In this document: positions 4,252 to 42,871 of the stretch, piece by piece | Position numbering within the stretch: the stretch's first letter is position 1 | Layout: the number at the start of each line of letters is the position of its first letter | DNA from: a virus | DNA: 64,000 nucleotides | Direction: 5' to 3' (one strand) | IMG/VR virus record: IMGVR_UViG_3300004369_000643 | Coordinates: 1 to 64,000 of that record | Made by a program: the position numbers and the translations under genes | The notes under the pieces: model-generated | Told to the model about the DNA's origin: nothing | The model's input: only the letters and a program-made list of their open reading frames with translations | The model's database searches: none

Positions 4252-4971
4252 TCAGACTTCTGCGAGTCCTGCCTCCGCAGAAGCCACGACTTCGTGGTAG
4301 TCGATGAGCCGGTCACGAACGTCGTCGTGGATTTCGTATGCGTCGTCGTTATCCCAGTCGAACCCTTCGGGCAGATGGTCGGAGAAACTTCCGCAACTGT
4401 CGAACAGCCTGCCATCTCGGACGACGAACGCACCGATGAAGTCCATGCCTTCTTCGACGTAGTTACCGGAGATGGTTACCCCAAACTTCTGGCTTACTTT
4501 CTCCCAGAGAGGTAGGGCAGGTGACCATGCCGTGTTGCCTGAGATGTGAATAACACCCTGTTCGGGGTGGTAGTCGTAGCCTGTCACTTCCATGCTCCAC
4601 TTCGTACCCCAGTTGGCGTTAGCCCATGAGTACCAGTCTGAGTAGCCTGTCTCAGCCTTAGCACGGTTAGCGTGTTCGATGAGAACGGCGTGTTCTGCCT
4701 TGTCCTCGGCATACTTCTCGGCATCCCAGTATTCGTTATCGGGGTCGTTCACCCACTCCATGATACGACCGTCGGGGTCGTACTCATCGGAAGGAGCAGG
4801 GGAGCGAGTACCCTGAAGCACCTCGGGCATGGGAACGAGTCGCATAGGCTGACCCCAGTAGTGGGTGTCACCAGCGTGTTCGTGTCCCTCAGACCGCATG
4901 ATGAAGTCGATGTTGTTTAGTGTTCCAACATCACCTTCGATAGTTACAGTATTCCAGCACCAGTTAGGCAT
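4252..4971 (-). CDS. Api92/YubB-like protein with ferredoxin-like fold, 239 aa
   Basis: Start at ATG 4971 with GGAGACACATC upstream. The N-terminus MPNWCWNTVTIEG is the hallmark of the DUF1281 / Api92-like family (YubB ferredoxin-like domain), proteins of plasmids and phages whose role is unknown despite the fold name: there is no Fe-S cluster motif. The middle (WYSWANANWGTKW) and the C-terminal half with many Trp/Asp fit the same family. It follows the 53-aa gene by 13 nt and ends before the promoter-hairpin at 4181-4218. Confidence 0.75.
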   Translation of the reverse strand: MPNWCWNTVTIEGDVGTLNNIDFIMRSEGHEHAGDTHYWGQPMRLVPMPEVLQGTRSPAPSDEYDPDGRIMEWVNDPDNEYWDAEKYAEDKAEHAVLIEHANRAKAETGYSDWYSWANANWGTKWSMEVTGYDYHPEQGVIHISGNTAWSPALPLWEKVSQKFGVTISGNYVEEGMDFIGAFVVRDGRLFDSCGSFSDHLPEGFDWDNDDAYEIHDDVRDRLIDYHEVVASAEAGLAEV

Positions 4972-4984
4972 GATGTGTCTCCTT

Positions 4985-5146
4985 TCAGTCGGCGTAGCCG
5001 TAGTTGTCGTAGTCGTAGCCGTCGTCGTCGGCACGGTATCCGATGCCGTCGGTTTCCCAGAGGAAATCTTCAGCCATCTGTTCCATCACTTCAGCGTCGT
5101 AATCGCTGAAGTCCTCATCTTCGTATGTATCCCATTCGTATTCCAT
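4985..5146 (-). CDS. 53-aa Asp/Tyr-rich protein
   Basis: Start at ATG 5146 after AGGAGGTCACA; the frame continues upstream but without a better start. The product is extremely acidic and Tyr-rich, ending in repeated D/Y/G residues (DDGYDYDNYGYAD). Low complexity makes homology hard to judge; the good SD, promoter and tight spacing to the Api92-like gene support it. An acidic DNA-mimic role is conceivable but unproven. Confidence 0.55.
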   Translation of the reverse strand: MEYEWDTYEDEDFSDYDAEVMEQMAEDFLWETDGIGYRADDDGYDYDNYGYAD

Positions 5147-5185
5147 TGTGACCTCCTGTGGTCGGTTGTTTGGTTGATGAGTGAA

Positions 5186-5214
5186 CCGTAACACACTTGT
5201 GCTACGGCTGTCAA
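5186..5214 (-). promoter_or_regulatory. Leftward promoter
   Basis: TTGACA (5209-5214), 17 bp, TTACGG (5186-5191); CCGTA/TACGG dyad covers -10 and spacer. Confidence 0.65.
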
Positions 5215-5230
5215 ATCGTGGGTGCGACCC

Positions 5231-5590
5231 TCACCAGTTGGCAGAGTCGCTAATCCATTCCCACATCTGGTCGGCATTACCCCTAGCGACGCTCTCAGGC
5301 ACGCTGTAGTAGCCTTCCTTGACTCGGATGCCCTTGTCCCTAATGGAACCGATTACATCACGCCAGACGGCTAATGAGGGGGCATAGAACGAGAACCAGA
5401 GTTCCATCTCACCCTGCCACTCGTCGCCGTTGTAGGGCGAGTAGTCAAGATAGTGAGGATGGTAGAGATGAACACCGTCGCCGGTGAGCAAGGGAAGAAC
5501 CTCGTTCAGCAGTTCCCTGCCAGTACGACGGTCGAACCACTCCAGCATCATGATGCCGAAGCCGGTTTCGGTGGCGGTGGTTGCTTCCAT
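5231..5590 (-). CDS. Hypothetical protein, 119 aa
   Basis: Start at ATG 5590 (MEATTATETGFGIMM) after GGAGGTCACAAC. Contains an MMLEWFDRRTGRELL helix followed by several aromatic beta-like segments (ELWFSFYAPSLAVW). Monocistronic, with promoter 5629-5657. No family recognised. Confidence 0.65.
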   Translation of the reverse strand: MEATTATETGFGIMMLEWFDRRTGRELLNEVLPLLTGDGVHLYHPHYLDYSPYNGDEWQGEMELWFSFYAPSLAVWRDVIGSIRDKGIRVKEGYYSVPESVARGNADQMWEWISDSANW

Positions 5591-8129: not shown

Positions 8130-8206
8130 ATTGTCACCCCCTCTCTGGTGTTGGTTGGTTTATCTATCATCATTATGCCATAAGGGTGTAACACCCCCCT
8201 TAGGAG

Positions 8207-8253
8207 CCGGTAGTTCGGTTGCCACGCCTACCGGAGCGCCGATGCTTAGTCGG
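8207..8253 (-). ncRNA. Conserved hairpin RNA motif, copy 3
   Basis: Stem CCGGTAG/CTACCGG, loop GCGTGGCAACCGAA, preceded by CCGACTAAGCATCGG. Part of the longer segment 8207-8365 that has a paralogue at 15941-16085. Confidence 0.6.
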
Positions 8254-8384
8254 GGATCTGAGTGGTATGTAGCCACTAGGCTACGGCGGTACCACAATTA
8301 CGATAATAATCAAGTGGCATCACCCCCTATCCGGTTCTTCGGGTTCATGTATTCATTGTTGCATACGGATGGCCCGCCGGTCAA
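8254..8384 (-). other. Short structured transcript with minimal reading frames (paralogue at 15987-16115)
   Basis: Behind a promoter (TTGACC 8379-8384, 18 bp, AACAAT 8355-8360). The minus strand then carries a 12-codon frame (MNPKNRIGGDAT), a 14-codon frame in the next phase (MPLDYYRNCGTAVA) and a hairpin GTAGCC-TAGT-GGCTAC, then the conserved motif. The paralogue has MKENRTGGDST, the same order and a hairpin GTAGCC/GGCTAC. I cannot tell leader peptides from chance frames. Confidence 0.4.
8355..8384 (-). promoter_or_regulatory. Leftward promoter with inverted flanks
   Basis: TTGACC, 18 bp, AACAAT; ATGGC/GCCAT arms bracket the -35. Confidence 0.5.
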
Positions 8385-8436
8385 ATCGTAGCCATAGTTC
8401 CTAGAGATAGGGGTATCTCTCGGAGAGATAGGTGAA

Positions 8437-8594
8437 TCGAACGTATGTTCGACGAACGTATGTTCGATGTTAGGTGACCTTAACACCGATAATTCCGATC
8501 AGATTAGTCGGGATATTAGGTGCGCCTAACATTGACAATCCCGATCAGATTAGTCGGGATATTAGGTGTCCCTAACATGGCGAACGCATGTTCG
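8437..8594. repeat. Palindrome array with three LexA-type dyads
   Basis: CGAAC-N4-GTTCG dyads at 8437-8452 (TCGAAC...GTTCGA), 8452-8467 and 8581-8594. Between them are TGTTAGGTGACCTTAACA (8468-8485) and a 46-bp direct repeat (units from 8491 and 8537), each with a CCGA...TCGG dyad and a TTAGG-N4-CCTAA dyad. The CGAAC-N4-GTTCG form matches the LexA box known from Gram-positive bacteria. No gene lies within. Confidence 0.7.
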
Positions 8595-10594: not shown

Positions 10595-10780
10595 TTAGTA
10601 TTTCACTTCTACGTCGTAAGTGTTTTCCAGATACTTGACTACTTCGTCAAGTGTCATTGTGGGTAAAACTTCCTCGCTAACGTATGTGTTATTTACGCTG
10701 AGGGTTACTTCTGTAGGGTGTCCGTCGATAGTGTGTACGACGGCGTGCGTTACGTTATTATGTGTTTCTCTTCCTAGCAT
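10595..10780 (-). CDS. Hypothetical protein, 61 aa
   Basis: Start at ATG 10780 (MLGRETHNNVTHAVV) after CAGGAGATAAG; the longer frame upstream crosses the promoter. Beta-rich with a regular VTLSVNNTYV strand pattern and a helical end (MTLDEVVKYLENTYD). Monocistronic. Unknown function. Confidence 0.65.
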   Translation of the reverse strand: MLGRETHNNVTHAVVHTIDGHPTEVTLSVNNTYVSEEVLPTMTLDEVVKYLENTYDVEVKY

Positions 10781-10853
10781 CTTATCTCCTGTTCTGCTAT
10801 CACTTCCTTTCGTGAAGTGTCTCGAAGGATACTTTCCTTCTTTGGTTGCTCCC

Positions 10854-10882
10854 AGTATACCAGAGTCGGTACATAAAAGCAA
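10854..10882 (-). promoter_or_regulatory. Leftward promoter fused to the preceding terminator
   Basis: TTGCTT (10877-10882), 17 bp, TATACT (10854-10859). The -35 is the U-tract of the terminator at 10881-10910. Confidence 0.65.
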
Positions 10883-10910
10883 CCCCTACCGGCGGATACC
10901 AGTAGGGGTT
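10881..10910 (-). terminator. Intrinsic terminator overlapping a -35
   Basis: 12-bp stem AACCCCTACTGG/CCGGTAGGGGTT (one G-U) followed by GCTTTT on the minus strand. Confidence 0.75.
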
Positions 10911-15706: not shown

Positions 15707-15841
15707 TCACTCTGCGTTGATCAGAGCGAAGGGATCTGTGCGATTCGCCGTGTCAACGAAGACGATGGTCTCGCACTCGTAGCACTCGCCCTCATCGTTG
15801 AGGTAGTCTTCGAATGCTCCGCAGTTGATGCAGTTGCTCAT
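15707..15841 (-). CDS. 44-aa zinc-ribbon protein
   Basis: ATG 15841 (MSNCINCGAFEDYLND) after AAAGGAAAGAACAG. CINCG and ECYECET supply two CxxC pairs. Driven by the heptamer-class promoter 15871-15899 and ended by 15677-15700. Family unknown. Confidence 0.6.
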   Translation of the reverse strand: MSNCINCGAFEDYLNDEGECYECETIVFVDTANRTDPFALINAE

Positions 15842-15870
15842 CTGTTCTTTCCTTTCTTCTTGATACTGTC

Positions 15871-15899
15871 ATAGTATCAGCGAGGTGTGTCGATCACAA
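15871..15899 (-). promoter_or_regulatory. Leftward promoter, TGTTACA-heptamer class
   Basis: TTGTGA (15894-15899), 17 bp with ACACACCTC, TACTAT (15871-15876); heptamers at 15914-15931. Confidence 0.6.
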
Positions 15900-15940
15900 C
15901 CTGTCTCGGTCGATGTAACACGACTGTAACAAAGTGGGTT

Positions 15941-15986
15941 GACCGGTTCTGTTGCCACGCTCCGGTCAGCGCCGACTCTCAGTCGG
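15941..15986 (-). ncRNA. Conserved hairpin RNA motif, copy 5
   Basis: Stem GACCGG/CCGGTC, loop AGCGTGGCAACAGAA, preceded by CCGACT-GAG-AGTCGG. Confidence 0.6.
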
Positions 15987-16115
15987 GGGTGGTGAGGTGC
16001 TGTAGCCTCACGGCTACGGCGGCTCCACGATTATGATGATCATCATCAAGTGGAATCACCTCCTGTCCGGTTCTCTTTCATGACTTCATCTTACCGTTCC
16101 CCCCACGTTCGACAA
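15987..16115 (-). other. Short structured transcript, paralogue of 8254-8384
   Basis: Promoter TTGTCG (16110-16115), 16 bp, TAAGAT (16088-16093). Minus strand then has an 11-codon frame MKENRTGGDST and a 26-codon frame, hairpin GTAGCC-GTGA-GGCTAC, and the conserved motif 15941-15986. Order and sequence parallel the 8.2-8.4 kb segment. Confidence 0.4.
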
Positions 16116-16277
16116 CCTGTGCCGACCGATTTTGTGTCTCTAGTAGAGATACCCCCTATCTCTGATAGATATGGGGCGGCTCACAGCAGGAAGGCACGGC
16201 ACTCGCCGTGCTACTCGCCTGTCGGCGGGCGAACCGACCGAGTGTAGATCGGCACCCCTCATGTCAAGTCGAAGCAA

Positions 16278-16670
16278 TCGAACACATGTTCGATCAGAGC
16301 CGACCTCACCCGACCGAACACATGTTCGATCCGACCGAAACCCGACCGAACTAGTCGGGAATCAAACCCGACCAACCTAGTCAACAATCAAAAGCCGACC
16401 AACTAGGTCAACAATCAAACCCGACTGAACTAGTCGGGAATCGAAACCCGACCAAACCAGTCAACAATCAAAAGCCGACCAACTAGGTCAACAATAAAAG
16501 CCGACCAGAACAGTCGGGAATCAAAGCCGACCAGAACAGTCGGGAATCAAAGCCGACCAAACCGGTCGGGAATCAATCGAACACACGTTCGATCCGAACG
16601 AGAACGTGAACACAATCACAAAGCGAACACATGTTCGATCAACAACACCAACAATCGAACAAACGTTCGA
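16278..16670. repeat. Five LexA-type dyads flanking a tandem repeat
   Basis: CGAAC-N4-GTTCG at 16278-16293, 16315-16328, 16577-16592, 16624-16637 and 16655-16670; the first, third and fifth have full TCGAAC/GTTCGA arms. Two lie left and three right of the tandem repeat. Confidence 0.75.
16341..16577. repeat. Nine-unit 26-27 bp tandem repeat
   Basis: Units start at 16341, 16367, 16394, 16420, 16447, 16474, 16500, 16526 and 16552. Consensus (C/G)CCGACC..AC.(A/G)GTC(GG/AA)(G/C)AATCAAA. Several units are dyads (CCCGACT-N5-AGTCGGG at 16420; CCGACC-N5-GGTCGG at 16553). Confidence 0.85.
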
Positions 16671-16822
16671 TCAACCAAAGCCGACCCCAATGTTACAGTT
16701 TGATGACAAACTTGACAAAGGCAAAGCGATGTGCTGCAGGGCCTCGGGACTTTTCGAGGGTGACTTCATAGCGGGGGCGTTGGTGTGACATATTTTTAGG
16801 TGTGGTTGTGGTTTGTGTTATC

Positions 16823-18709
16823 TCATGGTTTGGTGTTGAGTATGTTTTGGATTGCGGTTTGGGTGATGGCTGGTTGTGTTTTTTGGGTTTTGTTTTGTAG
16901 GGTGTTGTAGATGTGTTGGTCTATGGTGTTGGGGTTGATGAGGTTGTGTATTGTGGCGGGTTGTGTTTGTCCGATGCGGTGGATTCGGGCGCAGGTTTGG
17001 TGGTATTTGGCGGGTGTCCATGGGGCTTCGATGAAGAGCATGTTGTTTGATGCGGTTAGGGTGTGTCCGTGTGCTGCTGCGTCTATGGAGATGACGATGT
17101 TTTTGCAGTTTGTGTTATTCATGAATTCGTGTTTTGCGGTTTCGGTCTTTTGGGGGTTTTGGCCTCCGATGATCATTGGGGCGTTTAGTTCGTTGGCTAG
17201 GGTTTGTACTATGTGGCGGTGGTGGGCGGCGATGACTATTTTTTGTCCTGAGTTGTTGGCGTTTTCGATCCATTCTAGGGCGTGGGGGATTTTGGATTGG
17301 GCGGCGATTTTTCTGAGTTCTGTGAGTTGGATGAGGTTTTCGTAGTTTTGTGTTGCGTAGTGTGCTCGGATTCGGGCGGCTGTGGGGTTGGTGCCTTCGT
17401 TGATGGCGAGTTGTTCTTGTTGTTGTGTGTACCATTCTTGGAGGTCGTTGAGGGCGTGGTTGTACATTGTGCGGTGTTTTTTGTCCATTGTGGTGTGGAT
17501 GGTGTTGTATGTGATTGGTGGTAGGTCGGTGAGGACGTGTTGTTTTTCTCTGCGGATGTAGCAGTGGGTTTGTAGTTTGTTGAGTAGTTCTTTGTTGTTG
17601 GTTGATCCGTGTATTTGCCAGTGTCCCCAGTTGTCTCTGTAGGCTCCGCAGTAGCGTTTGTAGAAGTTCCAGCGGCCTCCGAAGTTGTCGATGTGTCCTA
17701 GGATTTCTAGTTGGGGTGCGTATTCGGCGGGCATGTTGGTGATGGGGGTGCCGGTGAGGAGTAGGATGTTGCCGGTGGTTGGGATGTTTTTTGCTATGTT
17801 TTTGGCGGCTTTTGTTCGTTGTGCGTCTGGGTTTTTGCAGTAGTGTGATTCGTCTAGGATGAGTGTGTTGTGGTGTTGGTTGTTGAGGTGTTGTTTTTGG
17901 GCGTGGATGTTGGGGTATCCGATGATGGTGTAGTCGGTTTCGGTCAGTTCGGGGGTTTTGCGGCCTTCGATGATTTGGATGGTGCGGTGGGGGAGTGCTT
18001 CTTGGATTTTTGTTTTCCAGTCTTCTGTGAGGCTGGTGGGGCAGATGATGAGGGCGGGGTATTGGTTTGTGTATTCTGTGGTGGCTAGGGCTTGGAGTGA
18101 TTTGCCTAGTCCCATTTCGTCTGCGATGAAGGTGCGTTGTTTTTCGGCGGCGTATGCTACGCCTGCTTTTTGGTAGGGGTAGAGTTGTAGTTGTAGGTTG
18201 GGGATGGTGATGTTTGCGTCGGTTGCTTGGGTGAGTTCTTGGGCGTGTTGTGCTTTTTTGGTTTCGATTTCTGCTTGTGTTTGGATGTGTTCGGGTATGG
18301 GGTGGTTGTATTTGTTTGCCCATTGGATGAGTTCGTGTACGTTGTTGTATGGTGTTTCCCAGTGGTTGTGGTGGGGGTTCCATTTGATGCCGGGGATGGC
18401 TTTGAGTTCGTGGATTTGTAGTGTGTCGTAGGGGACGCTGATTTTTAGGATGTCTTTTTCGAGTCTTATGGTGGTAGCCCCGATTGGGTGGTCGGGTAGT
18501 TGTAGGCGTATTAGTTCTTCGTCCACGTCGATGTTCCATGAGTTGGCGAAGGATATGGCTCGTTTTAGGGCTGGGAGGGGTATTGTCCAGTGTTTGTTGA
18601 GTTTGTCCCAGCGTGCGTGTGGGAATGATGTTTTGAGGGCTGTTATTTCGTCTTTGTTGTATGGTGTGTCTAGGACGAGTTGTGTGCCGTTTAGGTAGAG
18701 TCGTTTCAT
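16823..18709 (-). CDS. SNF2-family helicase, SMARCAL1-like, 628 aa
   Basis: Start at ATG 18709 (MKRLYLNGTQLVLDT) in an ATGA overlap with the Mom-like gene. Two N-terminal copies of a short substrate-recognition-like module (W..LN..W near 34-41, IKW.P....W near 109-118) precede the SNF2 ATPase: DEMGLGKS (about 197-204), DESH Walker B, LLTGTPI, and the C-terminal ARIHRIGQ motif VI. This is the phage SNF2/SMARCAL1-like layout; such enzymes move along dsDNA and may act in recombination or fork remodelling. Its coding strand is extremely A/C-rich compared with the rest. Confidence 0.9.
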   Translation of the reverse strand: MKRLYLNGTQLVLDTPYNKDEITALKTSFPHARWDKLNKHWTIPLPALKRAISFANSWNIDVDEELIRLQLPDHPIGATTIRLEKDILKISVPYDTLQIHELKAIPGIKWNPHHNHWETPYNNVHELIQWANKYNHPIPEHIQTQAEIETKKAQHAQELTQATDANITIPNLQLQLYPYQKAGVAYAAEKQRTFIADEMGLGKSLQALATTEYTNQYPALIICPTSLTEDWKTKIQEALPHRTIQIIEGRKTPELTETDYTIIGYPNIHAQKQHLNNQHHNTLILDESHYCKNPDAQRTKAAKNIAKNIPTTGNILLLTGTPITNMPAEYAPQLEILGHIDNFGGRWNFYKRYCGAYRDNWGHWQIHGSTNNKELLNKLQTHCYIRREKQHVLTDLPPITYNTIHTTMDKKHRTMYNHALNDLQEWYTQQQEQLAINEGTNPTAARIRAHYATQNYENLIQLTELRKIAAQSKIPHALEWIENANNSGQKIVIAAHHRHIVQTLANELNAPMIIGGQNPQKTETAKHEFMNNTNCKNIVISIDAAAHGHTLTASNNMLFIEAPWTPAKYHQTCARIHRIGQTQPATIHNLINPNTIDQHIYNTLQNKTQKTQPAITQTAIQNILNTKP

Positions 18710-19587
18710 GTTCTGTTTTTGGGGTAGGGGTAGGTTTTGTTGTTTTGTTCGAATTGTTTTTTGAGTTGTTTGGTTTCTTTTTTGTTTTGTCCTAAGATGA
18801 GTGCGTATTTGTGTTTTGCGGGTACTTGTACGGGTGTTGCGTTTGCTTGTACGGTTTTGCTGTGTTGGCGTAGTTGTTGTTCGATGTGGTCGGGTATGTT
18901 GTTCCAGATGATGGTGCTGTCTCTGTTCCAGTTGGGTTGCCATTCGATGTTGAGTTCTTTAGCGTATTTTTTGTATGCTGATCTTGCTCGGAAGAAGCGG
19001 TCTGATACGACTTTGCCTGAGTAGGGGTTGATGTAGCGGGTTGTGCCGCCTGAGTTTTGGCCGAGGTAGTAGAAGTTGCAGGCTTGGTATACGGTGCCTA
19101 GTTCTTTTGCGAGGGGGTCTGAGTAGGCGGTGAATAGGCGGTATTGTGTGTTTTGTACCATCCATTTAATTGACCACATGATGAAGGCGCTTGCAAGGTT
19201 TTTGGGTGACCATGAGATGCAGGCTCCTCGTCCGATGAGGCGTTCTATTTCTTTTGTGTTGTCGCCTAGTAGTTTGCTGAAGGCGTTGGGCATACTGAAT
19301 AGGAGTACGCCTGCGAGTTGGTTGTTGTGGTATGCGCCGAACCAGTGTGTGGTGTAGAGGCTTGTTGTGCCTAACCATTCGTGGCGTTTGATGAATTCTG
19401 TTGCGTCTTTGTGTTCTTGTTCTGTGGTTAGGGGTGTGAATGTGAAGTCGTTGACTGTGAGTAGTTGTGCTTGTTGTAGGGTGATGCCTGCTTGTTGTAG
19501 GTCTTCGTCTAGGTTTTGTAGACGCATTTCGTATTGCCAACAGTGTTCTTTGTTGTATGCCCGTAGTTCGGGGATTGTGGGTGTCAT
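18706..19587 (-). CDS. Mom-like GNAT-fold DNA modification protein, 293 aa
   Basis: ATG 19587 overlaps the upstream stop (ATGA). The core LIGRGACISWSPKNLAS followed by FTAYSDPLAKELGTVYQACN and FYYLG matches the Mom family of phages; in phage Mu, Mom uses a GNAT-type fold to convert adenine to a carbamoylmethyl derivative that blocks restriction. The C-terminal 90 residues are Lys/Gln-rich and may bind DNA. It lies between a 106-aa gene and the SNF2 gene in one operon. No Com-like regulator is seen. Same A/C-rich coding strand as the SNF2 gene. Confidence 0.75.
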   Translation of the reverse strand: MTPTIPELRAYNKEHCWQYEMRLQNLDEDLQQAGITLQQAQLLTVNDFTFTPLTTEQEHKDATEFIKRHEWLGTTSLYTTHWFGAYHNNQLAGVLLFSMPNAFSKLLGDNTKEIERLIGRGACISWSPKNLASAFIMWSIKWMVQNTQYRLFTAYSDPLAKELGTVYQACNFYYLGQNSGGTTRYINPYSGKVVSDRFFRARSAYKKYAKELNIEWQPNWNRDSTIIWNNIPDHIEQQLRQHSKTVQANATPVQVPAKHKYALILGQNKKETKQLKKQFEQNNKTYPYPKNRT

Positions 19588-21002: not shown

Positions 21003-21863
21003 TTACACTATTTTTTCTGCGGCGTCTAGGGTGTTGATGTGTGAGTACACTAGGCTGTCCATTGTTTGTGACATGGTGTAGCCTCCGGCGAGTACGTATG
21101 CGATGGGAATGTTGTATTGTTTTGCCCATTGGAATACGATGTTGTCTCGTTCGGCTAGTGTCTGGTGTGTGATTGTGGGGTAGGGGTCTGTTCCTGCATT
21201 ATACAAAATGACTCTTGTGTTGAGTTTAACTTTGTCTAATGTTTCGTTTACGGCGTCGATGTATTCGGTGTCTGATCGTGCGATTTTGATGTTGTGTGTT
21301 TCATCTTGGTCGTATTCGTCAAATCCGTTTGTTGAGATGTCGTATTGTTCTACTCTGTCATCTATGTTGAGGTGCCGTAACATGTTAACTGTTCCTCCTC
21401 CGCAGTGGGCGTCGAAGTCTAGAATGGTGACGTGGTGGTCGAATAGCCAGTTTGCTGTTACTGCTAGTCCGTTTACTGTGCAGAATCCTGAGCCGTGTTT
21501 GTGGTCGGCGTGGTGTAGCCCTGATGAGAGGCTTCCTGCTACAGTGTTGTGGTCTATTGCGTGTGCGGCGGCTGACATTACTCCTGCTGTGGAGTTGAGT
21601 ACCATCTGGTAGATTCCGTAATCCCATTTGAACCCGTTACTTTCGGCTAGGTATAGAGGGTCTCCCTTTTCTAGCGAGTCGAAGTATAGTCCGTCTAGCG
21701 CTGTTTTGATTTCAACGTAGGCGTCTTTGGTCATGTTTGTGGGATCGGTTACGTTTTCTTCACCGATTGTTTTTACGATTTCTTCGCTTTTTCGTGTTGT
21801 ATCAAAGGCGTGCTCTGCGCCAGTGTAATGTTTGTTCCAATAAATGGGGTGGGTGTATGTCAT
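21003..21863 (-). CDS. Histone-deacetylase-fold amidohydrolase, 286 aa
   Basis: Start at ATG 21863 (MTYTHPIYWNKHYTGAE), AAAGGAG upstream. All HDAC/AcuC/acetylpolyamine-amidohydrolase landmarks are visible: tandem His in SGLHHADHKHGSGFC, zinc ligands in LDFDAHCGGGT, the second Asp in NAGTDPYP and the catalytic Tyr in LAGGYT. The family removes acetyl groups from lysine or polyamines. It follows thyX by 13 nt in the operon HAD-thyX-HDAC. Substrate unknown; the nearby Mom-like GNAT protein makes an acetyl-linked modification tempting, but that is inference. Confidence 0.85.
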   Translation of the reverse strand: MTYTHPIYWNKHYTGAEHAFDTTRKSEEIVKTIGEENVTDPTNMTKDAYVEIKTALDGLYFDSLEKGDPLYLAESNGFKWDYGIYQMVLNSTAGVMSAAAHAIDHNTVAGSLSSGLHHADHKHGSGFCTVNGLAVTANWLFDHHVTILDFDAHCGGGTVNMLRHLNIDDRVEQYDISTNGFDEYDQDETHNIKIARSDTEYIDAVNETLDKVKLNTRVILYNAGTDPYPTITHQTLAERDNIVFQWAKQYNIPIAYVLAGGYTMSQTMDSLVYSHINTLDAAEKIV

Positions 21864-21876
21864 TGTGCTCCTTTCT

Positions 21877-22557
21877 TCAGGGCGCAACTTTGTAGTTTTG
21901 TACAAAGTGTTGATATGTGACGGGCATGTGTGATGATAGGAAATGTTCGACTGCATATGCGTATTGACGGATTTCCCATTGTGCGGTTTCGTCTGCCCGT
22001 AGGTTAATAAAGTTCATTAACGCTCTTGCGTTTGTTGTTGCGTAGAACTCTGTGTATGTTGATACAGGGAGTACCATGCGTGCTACTTCTTTTGCTACTC
22101 CTTGTTCTAGAAGTTTTTGGTATGTTGTGAATGATTCGTCATATGACTTAACCATTACGTCTTTAGAGAACTGAGGGTTTTCTAAAGGTTCGAATGTGTA
22201 GGCTCCGGGTTTACCTACCTGACTGCGTATTTGCTGACTGTCAGGTAGGTAGGCTACGGCGGGTAGTTCACTGTAGCGCCCTGAGTATTCGTTGTATGAC
22301 CAACCTATACGGTGTCTGAACCATTCTCGCACCACAAAGATGGGTGCTTTGATGTGGAAACGAAAGAAGTTGTGTTCGAAAGGGGTTCCGTGCTTTTCTC
22401 TCATGAGGAAGCCGATTAGTCCTTTGTCTCGTTCTGTCATTTCTGTTTGTGTTGCTCCGAAACTAACTCTTGCAGCGTTCACTACTGACAGGTCGTCAGC
22501 ATTTACTGCGTCTAGTCGCACGAAGCCGTGGTCTAACACTGTAAGTTGGTTTGTCAT
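21877..22557 (-). CDS. thyX: Flavin-dependent thymidylate synthase ThyX, 226 aa
   Basis: ThyX converts dUMP to dTMP with FAD and methylenetetrahydrofolate. The ThyX motif is at residues 81-96: RHRIGWSYNEYSGRYS. In most ThyX proteins RHR is followed by seven residues and Ser; here the spacing is eight, confirmed codon by codon. C-terminal FINLR near residue 180 also fits. ATG 22557 overlaps the HAD stop (TGATG). With the thymidine kinase at 27347 it secures dTTP for phage DNA. Confidence 0.92.
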   Translation of the reverse strand: MTNQLTVLDHGFVRLDAVNADDLSVVNAARVSFGATQTEMTERDKGLIGFLMREKHGTPFEHNFFRFHIKAPIFVVREWFRHRIGWSYNEYSGRYSELPAVAYLPDSQQIRSQVGKPGAYTFEPLENPQFSKDVMVKSYDESFTTYQKLLEQGVAKEVARMVLPVSTYTEFYATTNARALMNFINLRADETAQWEIRQYAYAVEHFLSSHMPVTYQHFVQNYKVAP

Positions 22558-31583: not shown

Positions 31584-31612
31584 AGGATACTACATATGAT
31601 AGCGCCTGTCAA
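31584..31612 (-). promoter_or_regulatory. Leftward promoter overlapping the recA stop
   Basis: TTGACA (31607-31612), 17 bp, TATCCT (31584-31589). Confidence 0.75.
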
Positions 31613-32583
31613 ATCGTATCGTAAATCTTAGTCGCAATTTCTTCACGAACATCAACGTTTTCATCCAAATAGGCTTTAGTGTTTACACGGCCTTGACCAA
31701 TGTTTTCACCGTTGTACGCATACCAAGCACCCTTCTTGTCAAGAATACCCAAATTAACAGCGATATCCACGATATCTCCAGTTCGGCTGATTCCTTCACC
31801 GTAGGTAATTTCAAATTCTGCTTGTCGGAAAGGGGGAGCAACTTTGTTCTTTACAACTTTGACACGAGTCTTGTTTCCAGAAGCCTCTCCACCGTCTTTT
31901 AATGTTTCAATACGTCGAATGTCCATACGTACCGAAGCATAAAACTTCAGAGCCTTACCTCCGGTTGTTACTTCAGGCGAACCGAACATTACACCAATCT
32001 TTTCACGCAACTGGTTAATCATAATTAACGTTGTCTTTGAGTGGTTCAGGTTTGCGACAATTTTACGCATCGCCTGTGACATGAGTCGTGCGTGCAGCCC
32101 AACATGACTGTCTCCCATCTCACCTTCAATTTCTGCACGAGGGGTCAAAGCCGCAACTGAGTCAACCACGACAACATCAAGCGCACCTGATTCAATCAAC
32201 TTGTTTGTAATAGTTAGAGCCTGCTCACCTGTGTCGGGCTGTGATATTAACAAGTTGTCGATGTCACAACCAATCGCTTTAGCGTAGATAGGGTCAAGTG
32301 CGTGCTCTGCATCAATGAATGCACACTTACCGCCTTGCTTCTGAGCCGCTGCGATGACATGTAGAGCGATAGTGGTCTTTCCTGACGACTCAGGGCCATA
32401 GATTTCGGTCACTCTTCCACGAGGCAGACCGCCAACGCCCAAAGCGATGTCAAGAGCAATTGAGCCGGTTGAGATTGTTTCTACATTCATTGATGCGTTG
32501 TCCCCAAGGCGCATGATTGAGCCTGTACCAAACTGCTTTTCAATTTGGCTGATTGCGTCTTCTAAGAGTTTTTCTTTATCCAT
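31609..32583 (-). CDS. recA: RecA recombinase, 324 aa, leaderless
   Basis: Full RecA core: Walker A GPESSGKT (63-70), [19 protein letters not shown], loop L2 [20 protein letters not shown], but shorter than host RecA because the acidic C-terminal tail is missing. ATG 32583 ([16 protein letters not shown]) lies 6 nt after TAGAAT, with TTGACT 17 bp upstream, and there is no SD. No LexA-type dyad is seen at this promoter. Works with the Rad52-like and Cas4-like genes in recombination. Confidence 0.95.
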
Positions 32584-39771: not shown

Positions 39772-40380
39772 ATGGGTAACTATTTAAATGTTGGGTGCGG
39801 TACGCACTACGCTACAGGTTGGGTTAACACCGATGTATGGGAAGACCATGCTACTAAGCCCGATGTGCTGGTTGAGTCAGGAAAGCCATACCCCTTTGAA
39901 GACAATACTTTTGATGCCATTTTCTTAGGCCACGTTTTAGAGCACATGGATTGGAGCGAGGTTGGTGGATTTTTAGAAGACATGAATAGGATTGCTAAGC
40001 CTAATTCACCAATACTTGCTGTGGGGCCTGATGTCTATCGAACAATTAAACGTTGGCATAAAAATCAAGAGCCGTGGAGTATGGTTGAATCTGTAATGGA
40101 GCATCAAGATGTTTACGGCGGGTATACGTCTTTTATTAACTCTGATGCTTATACTGCTACGCCTCCTGACTGGTGGGATGGTGCGGCTCATCACTGGAAT
40201 TGCCACGAAGACCGCATGTTCAGCATTATGTCATCCGTCTTTACGGACTGTTCTGTTTACACTGACAAGATTACGTGCGATGGTACAATGACTAGTTGGT
40301 TAGACAATGAAAATAATATCACTTGGCCTGTTGTAGGCTACTGGCACTGGCAATGCGCCGTACTGGGGTACTCAACATGA
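39772..40380 (+). CDS. SAM-dependent methyltransferase, 202 aa
   Basis: ATG 39772 after AAGGAGAATAT. YLNVGCGTHYATGWVNTD is motif I of a class I methyltransferase, FDAIFLGHVLEHM motif II-like. No DNA-methylase DPPY motif, so a small molecule or glycan substrate is more likely. Overlaps the ParB-like gene (ATGA). Confidence 0.8.
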   Translation: MGNYLNVGCGTHYATGWVNTDVWEDHATKPDVLVESGKPYPFEDNTFDAIFLGHVLEHMDWSEVGGFLEDMNRIAKPNSPILAVGPDVYRTIKRWHKNQEPWSMVESVMEHQDVYGGYTSFINSDAYTATPPDWWDGAAHHWNCHEDRMFSIMSSVFTDCSVYTDKITCDGTMTSWLDNENNITWPVVGYWHWQCAVLGYST

Positions 40381-41165
40381 TTCATAATATTGCAGATAAT
40401 CTTCAAAACCTTGCTGTAGATATTGATCTGTTACGCCCTTTGGAGAATAACGCACGACGAGGTAATGTCGATGCGATTATGGCATCTTACAGTAAGTTTG
40501 GTCAGGTAAAACCTATTGTGGCTATAGCAGATGACGCCGGTGACCTTACAGTTATCGCAGGTAACCACCAGTTAGAAGCGGCTAAAAGGTTAGGGTGGCA
40601 ACAGATCGCAGTTTCTGTAGTTGATTTAGACAACGACGATGCACTTGCGTTTGCCTTGGCAGATAATCGTATTTCTGATCTAGGCACAACAGATAATGAA
40701 ATTCTGTATGAGTTGTTAACTGACGTAATTGGCGACGACGAAAACTTTTTTGAAGTTTTAGGCTGGGACGATTTCTCTGTGGCGGCTATAGAAAACACTG
40801 TGATTACTGCCGAGTTGGCTAATGATAGCAATGCTGGATGGACTGCTCCTGAAATTGTTTTTAACGACGTGGGTGTTGACTCTCCGCCCCCCGCTGTACC
40901 TACTCAGAGTAGCGGCACCAATGAGCAGCCCGCCCGCAATCCACAACCGAATACGTCCACGATTGTAACACAGGGTAGCACAAGCACGGGATCGTCAGGT
41001 ACAAGTAATGCATCTATTCAATTTACTCTAGTTTTTGATAGCGCAGAGCAACAATCTAAATGGTATGCTTTTATTAAGTGGCTTAGAGAAAGTCCTGTCT
41101 ATGATGGCGATACAACTTCAGAGAGGTTGTTTGACTTTATTGCCCAGCATTCAGAAATGGGCTAA
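40377..41165 (+). CDS. ParB-like nuclease-domain protein, 262 aa (IbrB-like)
   Basis: ATG 40377 (MIHNIADNLQNLAVDID). N-terminal ParB/sulfiredoxin fold: YSKFGQVKPIVA, VIAGNHQLEAAKRLGW, ALADNRISDLG. A Ser/Thr/Pro/Gly linker (about 165-220) leads to a small C-terminal domain. It is followed after 2 bp by the PAPS-reductase-like gene, the pairing seen for IbrB/IbrA. Confidence 0.8.
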   Translation: MIHNIADNLQNLAVDIDLLRPLENNARRGNVDAIMASYSKFGQVKPIVAIADDAGDLTVIAGNHQLEAAKRLGWQQIAVSVVDLDNDDALAFALADNRISDLGTTDNEILYELLTDVIGDDENFFEVLGWDDFSVAAIENTVITAELANDSNAGWTAPEIVFNDVGVDSPPPAVPTQSSGTNEQPARNPQPNTSTIVTQGSTSTGSSGTSNASIQFTLVFDSAEQQSKWYAFIKWLRESPVYDGDTTSERLFDFIAQHSEMG

Positions 41166-41167
41166 CT

Positions 41168-42340
41168 GTGGCTAGGCGTAGAATGTTTTTAGACATGAAT
41201 TGTGTCGATGCTGCACGTGAGCGTATCCGTCATGTTTATGATACTTTCGATACTGTTTGTGTACAGTTTAGTGGCGGTAAAGACTCAACTGCTTGCTTGT
41301 ACTTAGCGAAAGAAATACATGAGGAACGTGGTTTAGGGCCTGTTAAAGTTATTTTCCGTGATGAAGAGATGCTGTCTCCTGCGGTTGCTGATTACGTTCA
41401 GCGTGTAAGCGAGTATGATTGGGTGGACATGGAGTGGTATTGTCTTCCTATGGGGCAAGAAGTTTGGGTTCTAGGTGCAAGAGAGTATGTTTTGCTATGG
41501 TCTAAGATGCGAGAAAGCGAAGGCCGCTTGTTTAGACCTTTTCCAAAGAACGCTATTAGGGCGGAGCACTTTGGGCTTGATCCGAGTAAGGCGATTCCCC
41601 GGAAGGTCGATGAATACACTATGCAGGGAAAGAAGGGAAGAACAGCATTTATTACCGGTGTACGTGCAAATGAATCGATGATTCGGTATCGTACAGTAAC
41701 TCAAAAGTTACACGAGAATTATATTAATCGACCATTTAAGTTATCTAAGGCAATACCTCTGCGGTTTGCTAAAGTTATTTATGACTGGACATCTGATGAT
41801 GTTTTAAAGTTTATTACTGAAGAGCATGGTGCCGATTATTGTGCATACTATGACTATGCTGCTATGAGTGGAGCAAATCAAAGGGTGGGCATCCCTCTTC
41901 ATGCTGTAGCCTCAAGAAGACTTACTGATGTTCTTAGAACTGAGCCAGAGTTCTATGACGATCTTGTTAGATGTTTTCCTCAGATTGAAGCACAGCGTCA
42001 GTTGTGGTCTGAATTCAACATTGAAAGAGTTATTGATATGTACGAGAGCATGGGGTGGAAGGGCGTTAAGTACTGCGTTGAAGATAATATTTTAACTCCG
42101 GGGCTTCGAAAAGCGGCCATGGTGTACAGTAATGACTTTAAGAAGAAACACGCCAAAGACCCTTATGGGTACCCGTTAGATCACTTGATTCGGACATTGT
42201 TATTAAATTCATTTGTAGGTTCACCAAGTCCTGTAGGCCCTAAGACCAAAGCACACAACAAGCGCAGATCGCTACTAGAGCAAGATGATCAGATTATCAT
42301 GGATGCCAACAGCCTTGACTTGCACGACGATACACGGTAG
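41168..42340 (+). CDS. PAPS-reductase-like PP-loop protein, 390 aa (IbrA-like)
   Basis: GTG 41168. FSGGKDST (residues 34-41) is the PP-loop of adenine-nucleotide alpha-hydrolases; the later FITGVRANESMIRYRT and PLRFAKVIYDWTSDDV fit the IbrA/DndC-like branch, not a metabolic PAPS reductase. In such phage and plasmid pairs the role is unresolved; sulfur-based DNA or RNA modification and regulation have been discussed. ParB-like genes lie on both sides. Confidence 0.8.
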   Translation: MARRRMFLDMNCVDAARERIRHVYDTFDTVCVQFSGGKDSTACLYLAKEIHEERGLGPVKVIFRDEEMLSPAVADYVQRVSEYDWVDMEWYCLPMGQEVWVLGAREYVLLWSKMRESEGRLFRPFPKNAIRAEHFGLDPSKAIPRKVDEYTMQGKKGRTAFITGVRANESMIRYRTVTQKLHENYINRPFKLSKAIPLRFAKVIYDWTSDDVLKFITEEHGADYCAYYDYAAMSGANQRVGIPLHAVASRRLTDVLRTEPEFYDDLVRCFPQIEAQRQLWSEFNIERVIDMYESMGWKGVKYCVEDNILTPGLRKAAMVYSNDFKKKHAKDPYGYPLDHLIRTLLLNSFVGSPSPVGPKTKAHNKRRSLLEQDDQIIMDANSLDLHDDTR

Positions 42341-42343
42341 TGT
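42315..42343 (+). promoter_or_regulatory. Leaderless-type promoter
   Basis: TTGACT (42315-42320), 17 bp, TAGTGT (42338-42343), 6 nt, ATG 42350. Confidence 0.6.
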
Positions 42344-42349
42344 AATCAC

Positions 42350-42871
42350 ATGGATTTAGCAAATATAAAAGATGTGCGTCCCCCTAAATGGACATCTTCG
42401 TGTTATGTTGTTTCTCCTGACTATAAAAAACTTGAGAAGTCAATTAAGAAGTATGGTATTTTAAGTCCTATAGTAATTCAGCCTGACGGAACTATTGTAG
42501 ATGGTTTTCATCGATGGAAGGCTGCAAATGAATTGGGTTTAAGTAAGGTTCCTGTAGTTGTCGTTCAGGTTGACGACATTGAAGCCATGTTATTACACAT
42601 TGACCTAAATAGGTATCGTGGTATAGTTATAGCCAAGTACCTGTCTAATATGATTAGACGTATCCTTCAGTCTGGTAGATACGATCATGAATCGTTGCGA
42701 AGTAAAATGGGACTTACTTCTGAAGAGTTTGACGTTTTAGCAGAAGGCTCTTTGATTAAGATGCGTAAGATTAAGCAGCACACGTATTCACCTGCTTGGG
42801 TTCCCATTGAGTCAGCGACTGGCGAAGATATAAACGTTGAGCGTGTTACTGGACACGCAGAGCAGGTTTAA
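42350..42871 (+). CDS. Second ParB-like protein, 173 aa, leaderless
   Basis: ATG 42350 (MDLANIKDVRPPKWTSS). ParB N-terminal signature: IKKYGILSPIVIQPDGTIVD and GFHRWKAANELG. Shorter than the first ParB-like protein and without its linker. Probably functions with the PP-loop protein. Confidence 0.75.
   Translation: MDLANIKDVRPPKWTSSCYVVSPDYKKLEKSIKKYGILSPIVIQPDGTIVDGFHRWKAANELGLSKVPVVVVQVDDIEAMLLHIDLNRYRGIVIAKYLSNMIRRILQSGRYDHESLRSKMGLTSEEFDVLAEGSLIKMRKIKQHTYSPAWVPIESATGEDINVERVTGHAEQV

Follow-up and report, generated by a model that had tools for sequence, protein, structure and literature searches.

Two non-coding arrays of LexA-type boxes were found in a viral record of 102,594 bp (G000), the first 64,000 nucleotides of which are the stretch analysed here (the window). 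The larger array lies behind the 3' end of a gene encoding an SNF2-type helicase, and it adjoins a switch in strand composition that resembles a replication origin. From the DNA sequence we infer LexA binding, an origin and titration as the effect; in this reading, which we favour tentatively and hold to be possible rather than probable, sites for host LexA at or beside a putative origin, behind the helicase gene, titrate the host's LexA.

LexA-type arrays in the phage record

G000 contains eight perfect CGAAC-N4-GTTCG dyads, and its remaining 38.6 kb beyond the window hold no exact box. The features concerned are as follows.

16279-16292, 16315-16328, 16578-16591, 16624-16637 and 16656-16669: primary array, five exact LexA-type boxes, all with an RNRY centre
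16338-16576: tandem repeat, period 26-27 bp, about nine copies, mostly with an internal CCGAC...GTCGG dyad; iteron-like
8438-8451, 8453-8466 and 8581-8594: second array, three exact LexA-type boxes around a 46-bp repeat
16823-18943, minus strand: ORF of the SNF2-type helicase (Pfam SNF2-rel_dom, 3.8e-32), its 3' end facing the primary array

The initial annotation of this DNA had described five dyads at 16.3 kb and three at 8.4 kb, and both clusters were recovered, at a frequency far above that in shuffled sequence. When up to one mismatch was allowed, 13 matches were obtained, compared with a shuffle mean of 2.07 and a shuffle maximum of 6; none of 100 shuffles reached 13. The box clusters are not a product of chance and, within G000, are confined to the two arrays. 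The tandem repeat that had been noted between the boxes of the primary array is likewise real. The annotation missed three things: that the array keeps a conserved position behind the helicase, that strand asymmetry there is origin-like, and that promoter-like matches are present.

On one side, the primary array is flanked by the helicase 3' end, and on the other by a leader and small-ORF module on the same strand. Between array and leader, both modules carry TATCTCT/AGAGATA dyads (about 16140-16180 and 8405-8435), perhaps a further operator. Neither the array DNA nor, by megablast, 22 kb of the right arm matched named phages; an Rfam search of the window gave no match, and ARAGORN detected no tRNA in it.

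Phage identity and host

Gene matches in G000 include a tail sheath, terminase, portal, DNA polymerase, ribonucleotide reductase and sigma factor, as well as a primase-helicase (Toprim and AAA domains), thymidine kinase, ThyX, RecA, a pyrimidine-dimer glycosylase and an Erf-like annealing protein. This set of structural and replication genes suggests a large myovirus that is equipped to replicate with genes of its own. No match to a tyrosine integrase (PF00589) or a serine recombinase (PF00239) was obtained in G000, a record that may be incomplete, and the combination expected of a temperate phage, namely its own LexA/S24 repressor together with an integrase, was not found there; the phage is apparently virulent. 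A check for terminal repeats found no 16-mer common to the two 4-kb ends of G000. The RecA and pyrimidine-dimer glycosylase genes (31609-32583, minus strand; L006 11239-11826, plus strand) are repair genes that fit an SOS link. A histone-deacetylase-like protein is encoded at 21003-21956 (minus strand), and by eye a similar one appears at 4306-5244 (plus strand) of L057, a further viral contig, which has an array of four boxes.

The portal matches Brevibacterium phage Cantare at 41.7%, followed by Gordonia phages; the nearest named relatives of the primase-helicase are Arthrobacter phages, which the SNF2-type helicase also matches, at 28-31%. From such named relatives of single proteins, which mostly infect Actinomycetota, we infer an actinobacterial host. 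RecA matches are scattered over many hosts and carry little host information. Among eight named actinophage records related by single proteins, seven lack an exact box and one, Arthrobacter phage Ottawa, has a single one. A helicase search of genome contigs confirmed no relative and thus pointed to no host.

Candidate proteins for the boxes

All 26 sites (eight in G000 and 18 in six relatives) fit CGAACRNRYGTTCG including the four central bases (RNRY), a fit expected in 18.75% of random N4 centres. Because sites within one array are partly duplicates, the eight distinct centres among these 26 sites are the fairer count. The Gram-positive LexA consensus appears as CGAACRnRYGTTYC in the available text of one source (PMC2248561), and the Streptomyces LexA motif as tCGAAC-N4-GNNCGa in that of another (PMC9380542). 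Assignment of the boxes to the LexA type is thus well supported by their sequence, which bears out the earlier assignment to the SOS box of Gram-positives and actinobacteria.

The initial annotation had also offered a phage-encoded repressor of similar specificity as a reader of the boxes. Domain searches of G000, again with the proviso that the record may be incomplete, found neither a LexA (PF01726) nor an S24 (PF00717) domain. LexA_DNA_bind is likewise absent from the records of six relatives (G001, G002, G005, G006, G007 and G013) and from the unrelated G012; of the eight records searched, one, the unrelated G014, contains it. A phage-encoded LexA thus finds no support in G000, in which neither LexA_DNA_bind nor Peptidase_S24 was found. 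Since no such domain was matched in the record, host LexA is the likely binder and the simplest candidate.

A phage protein of another kind, an initiator or a repressor whose specificity resembles that of LexA, could also read the boxes. The 26-27-bp repeats between them look like iterons, and repeats close to an origin generally serve the initiator that the element itself encodes. Moreover, the unrelated G014 pairs a seven-box array with an encoded LexA-type DNA-binding domain. However, the absence of a LexA-type or S24 domain from G000, and of a LexA-type domain from the six relatives, speaks against such a protein, as does the RNRY centre in 26 of 26 sites, a signature of Gram-positive LexA. 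We regard this alternative as distinctly improbable and retain host LexA as the candidate. In G014 (locus L018), a viral record of 67 kb, the array lies at 10656-10908 and the LexA-type domain at 59669-59854 (minus strand).

Two ParB_N proteins (40323-41165 and 42350-42871) were considered as binders and dropped: they match in the N-terminal domain only and lie beside a PAPS-reductase-like gene. The arrangement, in which ParB_N-type proteins flank a PAPS-reductase-like protein (40323-42871, plus strand), resembles IbrA/IbrB-like pairs.

A conserved place behind the helicase gene

A search with the helicase yielded 11 related loci, of which L009, L014, L015 and L017 stop within the helicase or where it ends, leaving seven testable. 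Similar arrays in related phages, which the initial annotation had named as a check, were indeed encountered: one to seven boxes occupy the same gap in six of the seven (L007, seven; L008, four; L012, three, its contig being cut within a fourth; L013, two; L010 and L011, one each, with near matches beside the exact box), and L016 has no box behind its helicase. In the relatives, boxes lie 82-346 bp behind the helicase stop codon; the first is 82-177 bp away in all six and 154 bp away in the window. Records with boxes, G000 included, hold between one and eight of them, and none was found elsewhere in the records of the six box-carrying relatives, contigs that may be incomplete.

A second, alignment-based search added L149 (66% identity), whose sequence continues past the helicase and has no LexA-type box. 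L154 and L155, only 35% and 25% identical, also lack a box, and L151-L153 stop inside the helicase. Array surroundings are poorly conserved except for an AT-rich block, present in most relatives, and an AAAGT-containing block just past the stop codon.

16743-16800, minus strand: conserved blocks after the helicase stop codon, namely AT-rich AAAAATATGTCACA and CTCGAAAAGTCCCGAG with invariant AAAGT; they coincide with the record's largest composition step (about 16751)

The contigs of G001, G005, G006 and G007 (loci L007, L011, L012 and L013) stop in or near the arrays, within 0.2-0.85 kb past the helicase; these may be real genome ends or assembly breaks caused by repeats, which look alike here. 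The first 9 kb of G005 show no similarity to G000.

Strand-composition switch and putative origin

Keto skew (G+T minus A+C on the helicase-coding strand) falls from approximately 0 at about 9 kb upstream to between -0.55 and -0.60 over the final 1.5 kb of the helicase gene. This gradient is present in nine phages of nine (in L149 as measured from 4.5 kb onwards), and in all nine the skew breaks off behind the helicase stop codon. In the bin 150-300 bp past the stop, the skew is positive (0.23-0.47) in the window, L007, L008, L010, L011 and L149, weakly positive in L016 (0.09), negative in L013, which has a CT-rich repeat, and not measurable in L012. The cumulative keto-skew minimum falls 41-129 bp behind the stop in seven of the nine phages; a slow drift farther on displaces the overall minimum in the window and in L149. 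The record's largest step between neighbouring 600-bp windows (+0.863) lies at about 16751, and its twelve most skewed 1-kb windows all start at 16.5-19.3 kb.

The bias is strongest where codons are freest. Fourfold sites of the helicase comprise 111 A, 151 C, 3 G and 1 T (98.5% A or C), a keto skew of -0.97. In the eight relatives, the corresponding skew is -0.88 to -0.99, and A or C fills 94-100% of helicase fourfold sites across the window and these relatives. Among the following genes of the window, fourfold skew is -0.93 at 2.0 kb, then -0.54, -0.65, -0.72, -0.47 and -0.39; farther away, it is -0.05 at 6.6 kb, -0.61 at 8.4 kb (67 sites), about -0.2 at 9-9.5 kb and approximately 0 from 10.6 kb. 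First and second codon positions show a much smaller bias. G and T are almost missing from fourfold sites throughout 16823-19587 (minus strand), which covers the helicase and a Mom-like gene, and the same depletion marks the helicase genes of L007, L008, L010-L013, L016 and L149.

To our knowledge, a fourfold bias this strong is found only in mitochondria. Its sign appears opposite to that expected if the non-transcribed strand were exposed during sense transcription. The best account may be a strand that, like one in mitochondrial DNA, remains single-stranded longest close to a start point; antisense transcription, or R-loops arising at the array, may instead be the cause. No mirror-image skew was seen on the left side, below 16 kb, and a classical two-way origin is thus not established. 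The place of the array resembles a replication origin by the features looked for in the sequence: a composition switch is present, as are iterons or initiator boxes (the 26-27-bp repeats, and DnaA boxes in G005). At the second array (8.4 kb), there is no composition switch.

DnaA- and IdeR-type sites

In G005, seven copies of TTATCCACA, which we take to be the DnaA box, lie on one strand at 104612-104871, adjoining the LexA-type box; the motif occurs nowhere else in its 105 kb, and G000 has two scattered copies. A further type of dyad is located in the second array of the window.

8470-8483, 8516-8529 and 8562-8575: three TTAGG-N4-CYTAA dyads in the second array, a match or near-match to the IdeR/DtxR consensus

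These are three of the five TTAGG-N4-CYTAA sites of G000. In G013 (locus L149), a distant relative, four such sites lie within 155 bp of the same gap behind the helicase and none elsewhere in its 40 kb. For IdeR/DtxR, a 14-bp consensus, TTAGGNNNNCCTAA, has been proposed, and a C-to-T change at position 2 of the repeats hardly weakens binding, as far as the available text of the source goes (PMC8464063). The sites at 8516 and 8562 of the window and at 6170 of L149 match the consensus exactly, and 8470 and the other three L149 sites carry one C-to-T change; this fit was noticed only after the dyads had been found. Boxes of apparent DnaA and IdeR type may thus sit in such arrays. Searches of G000, G001, G005 and G013 for DtxR-type and DnaA C-terminal domains found neither.

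These boxes invite a broader version of titration, in which the fixed, fast-changing spot next to the origin would be an exchangeable docking island for LexA, DnaA and IdeR, loaded by each lineage with sites for whichever regulators count in its host and, through the high copy number of freshly replicated origin DNA, acting as a sponge that needs no protein and alters SOS, replication initiation and iron uptake together. We consider this version rather doubtful.

Promoter-like matches and the operator question

The initial annotation saw no box at a visible promoter. This holds in part; it has to be amended in that sigma70-like consensus matches lie at both arrays, each followed by a homologous leader module.

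16718-16690, minus strand: sigma70-like match TTGTCA-17-TAACAT, reading straight into the primary array; consensus match only
8384-8355, minus strand: sigma70-like match TTGACC-18-AACAAT, just downstream of the second array; consensus match only
15830-16060, minus strand: leader module downstream of the primary array; a homologous module at 8195-8330 lies likewise downstream of the second array

Accordingly, host LexA might simply repress the adjoining early leftward promoters (16718-16690 and 8384-8355), as in other LexA-using phages. The promoter-like matches and the homologous leader modules at both arrays fit an operator of this kind, and by eye a sequence similar to the 16718-16690 match precedes the array of L007. 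None was seen in the others, however: in L008 and L010-L013, inspection by eye found no promoter-like sequence before the first box, and boxes lie up to several hundred bases away from the promoter-like matches. In L008, opposite-strand ORFs read towards the array, placing it between convergent genes, and L010, read by eye, has the same arrangement; in both, the first gene past the array reads towards it. As the array lies between convergent genes in these two relatives, it is probably not simply an operator. Such a role may apply in G000, yet it leaves the fixed place in all relatives unexplained, and as an overall explanation we judge it improbable.

The leaders have features of their own. 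Two short leader ORFs (16049-16014 and 8313-8281, minus strand) have a TTG start, a -Pro-Pro-stop end and a strong Shine-Dalgarno-like sequence upstream; hairpins follow both, possibly for ribosome-mediated attenuation. An RNA-like element with the loop TGGCAACAGAA occurs at 15959, 9234, 8226, 7926 and 6990 of the window (minus strand) and at 12685 of L008 (minus strand). It can form an H-type pseudoknot, both stems of which covary between the six copies (for example GACCGG/CCGGTC, CCGGTAG/CTACCGG and GCTAAGT/ACTTAGC); the pairing comes from a best-pairing search of six copies only, with no Rfam match. A leader-motif scan of viral contigs found nothing.

Proposed titration or gating

Titration at the putative origin, the reading preferred here, would proceed as follows. 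After infection, host LexA dimers would bind the array boxes. The origin region, copied first, would appear earliest and in the highest amount of all phage DNA, and its copied sites would pull LexA off host SOS promoters, making repair and nucleotide-supply genes available. The second array would act likewise on LexA and, through TTAGG-N4-CCTAA sites, on the iron regulator IdeR; in one relative, DnaA boxes in the same gap could add to this. A LexA decoy had already been proposed in the initial annotation. The idea is possible and now better motivated, by the apparent DnaA- and IdeR-type boxes and by arrays that are not tied to promoters in all relatives; the convergent-gene placement in L008 and L010 fits titration better than an operator. 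Against it, a single exact box, as in L010 and L011, would make a weak sponge, and an operator would fit the position of both G000 arrays ahead of promoter-like matches and leader modules. In addition, the place can do without LexA boxes, whatever its role, since L016 shows the switch but no box and L149 carries dyads of another kind.

A LexA-gated origin is also possible, nearly as likely as titration. Bound LexA would hold back unwinding, primer transcription or initiator binding, and replication would fire or speed up on LexA cleavage, caused by host damage or by single-stranded DNA coated with RecA of the host or of the phage. Through IdeR and DnaA sites, further states of the host would be sensed. 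A gate fits an array that abuts an origin-like composition switch, the DnaA boxes at the same place in G005 and a phage that encodes RecA, and one box, the number in L010 and L011, could be enough. There is also a precedent for a host regulator halting a virulent phage, that of Spo0A and phi29, in the available text of PMC9437464. Nonetheless, no composition switch accompanies the second array (8.4 kb), and L016 and L149 show the same asymmetry without LexA boxes.

LexA-type arrays in other viral contigs

At least 119 viral stretches have two or more boxes close together, and 40 loci with at least three boxes within 600 bp were collected among the matches listed. Few of these 40 show a composition switch (L036, in the record of L007, L134, L135, L081 and L051; more weakly, L057). 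The notion that viral LexA-type arrays generally lie at composition switches was rejected, as most of the 40 listed loci lack one. That most arrays in unrelated viral contigs are away from such switches also counts against titration at an origin.

Triple arrays were found in 84 stretches, compared with 62 for a permuted control dyad, and the raw counts are thus not far above the control. The two sets differ in context: of the 62 control stretches, 58 fall within ORFs of 100 codons or more, compared with 50 of 80 LexA-type stretches (80 of the 84 were read), and spacing pairs number 12 in control and 52 in LexA-type stretches. Outside ORFs, 83 of 90 LexA-type centres fit RNRY, versus 0 of 12 in the control. 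LexA-type arrays occur in other phages too, mostly without a composition switch. In L113 and L032 they overlap ORFs and may be coding. Genome contigs contain 97 triple-array stretches.

Comparison with known systems

A literature search of a library that includes few subscription journals retrieved no paper on a phage with SOS boxes as LexA decoys or on LexA-binding sites in actinobacteriophages, and, with the same coverage, no title on LexA-site arrays at phage origins or on such a gradient in a phage. The LexA-using phages known so far are mainly temperate, with boxes in promoters. In GIL01 of Bacillus thuringiensis, according to the available text of PMC4551915, CGAAC-N4-GTTCG boxes in the phage DNA are targets of host LexA, as proposed here. 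GIL01 is temperate, its boxes belong to the lysogeny promoter P1 and it encodes a co-repressor, gp7 (PMC4551915), whereas in G000 no integrase or repressor was found, and the arrays are larger and, at the primary site, lie behind a helicase at an origin-like switch. If the reading advanced here is correct, an apparently virulent phage would sense or draw off host regulators by DNA alone, with no phage protein, and phage replication would have a simple link with the host's SOS, iron and replication-initiation systems.

Clusters of sites for a host master regulator are also known from virulent phages of Alphaproteobacteria, whose CtrA sites are discussed in terms of 'lytic deferment', alongside the Spo0A sites of phi29; one 1.3-kb gap holds 12 canonical CtrA sites (PMC9437464, available text). 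Those CtrA sites lie in promoter regions between divergent genes, with regulation shown (PMC9437464). The LexA-type array, in contrast, can sit between convergent genes and adjoins a putative origin.

Clusters of DnaA boxes such as datA titrate DnaA. The arrays described here share with them the form of a non-coding cluster of regulator sites and a possible titration; unlike datA-like clusters, they are dominated by LexA-type sites, with DnaA boxes in G005 only. Finally, the strong fourfold bias and the gradient recall the mitochondrial type of asymmetry, with its replication-linked gradient along the genome (available text of PMC4182315 and PMC8565317). The phage differs in having double-stranded DNA and a gradient of only about 6-9 kb on one side. 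So extreme a strand bias beside an array raises the mechanistic question of why one origin-adjacent strand would stay single-stranded so long, and it may allow phage origins to be found from sequence.
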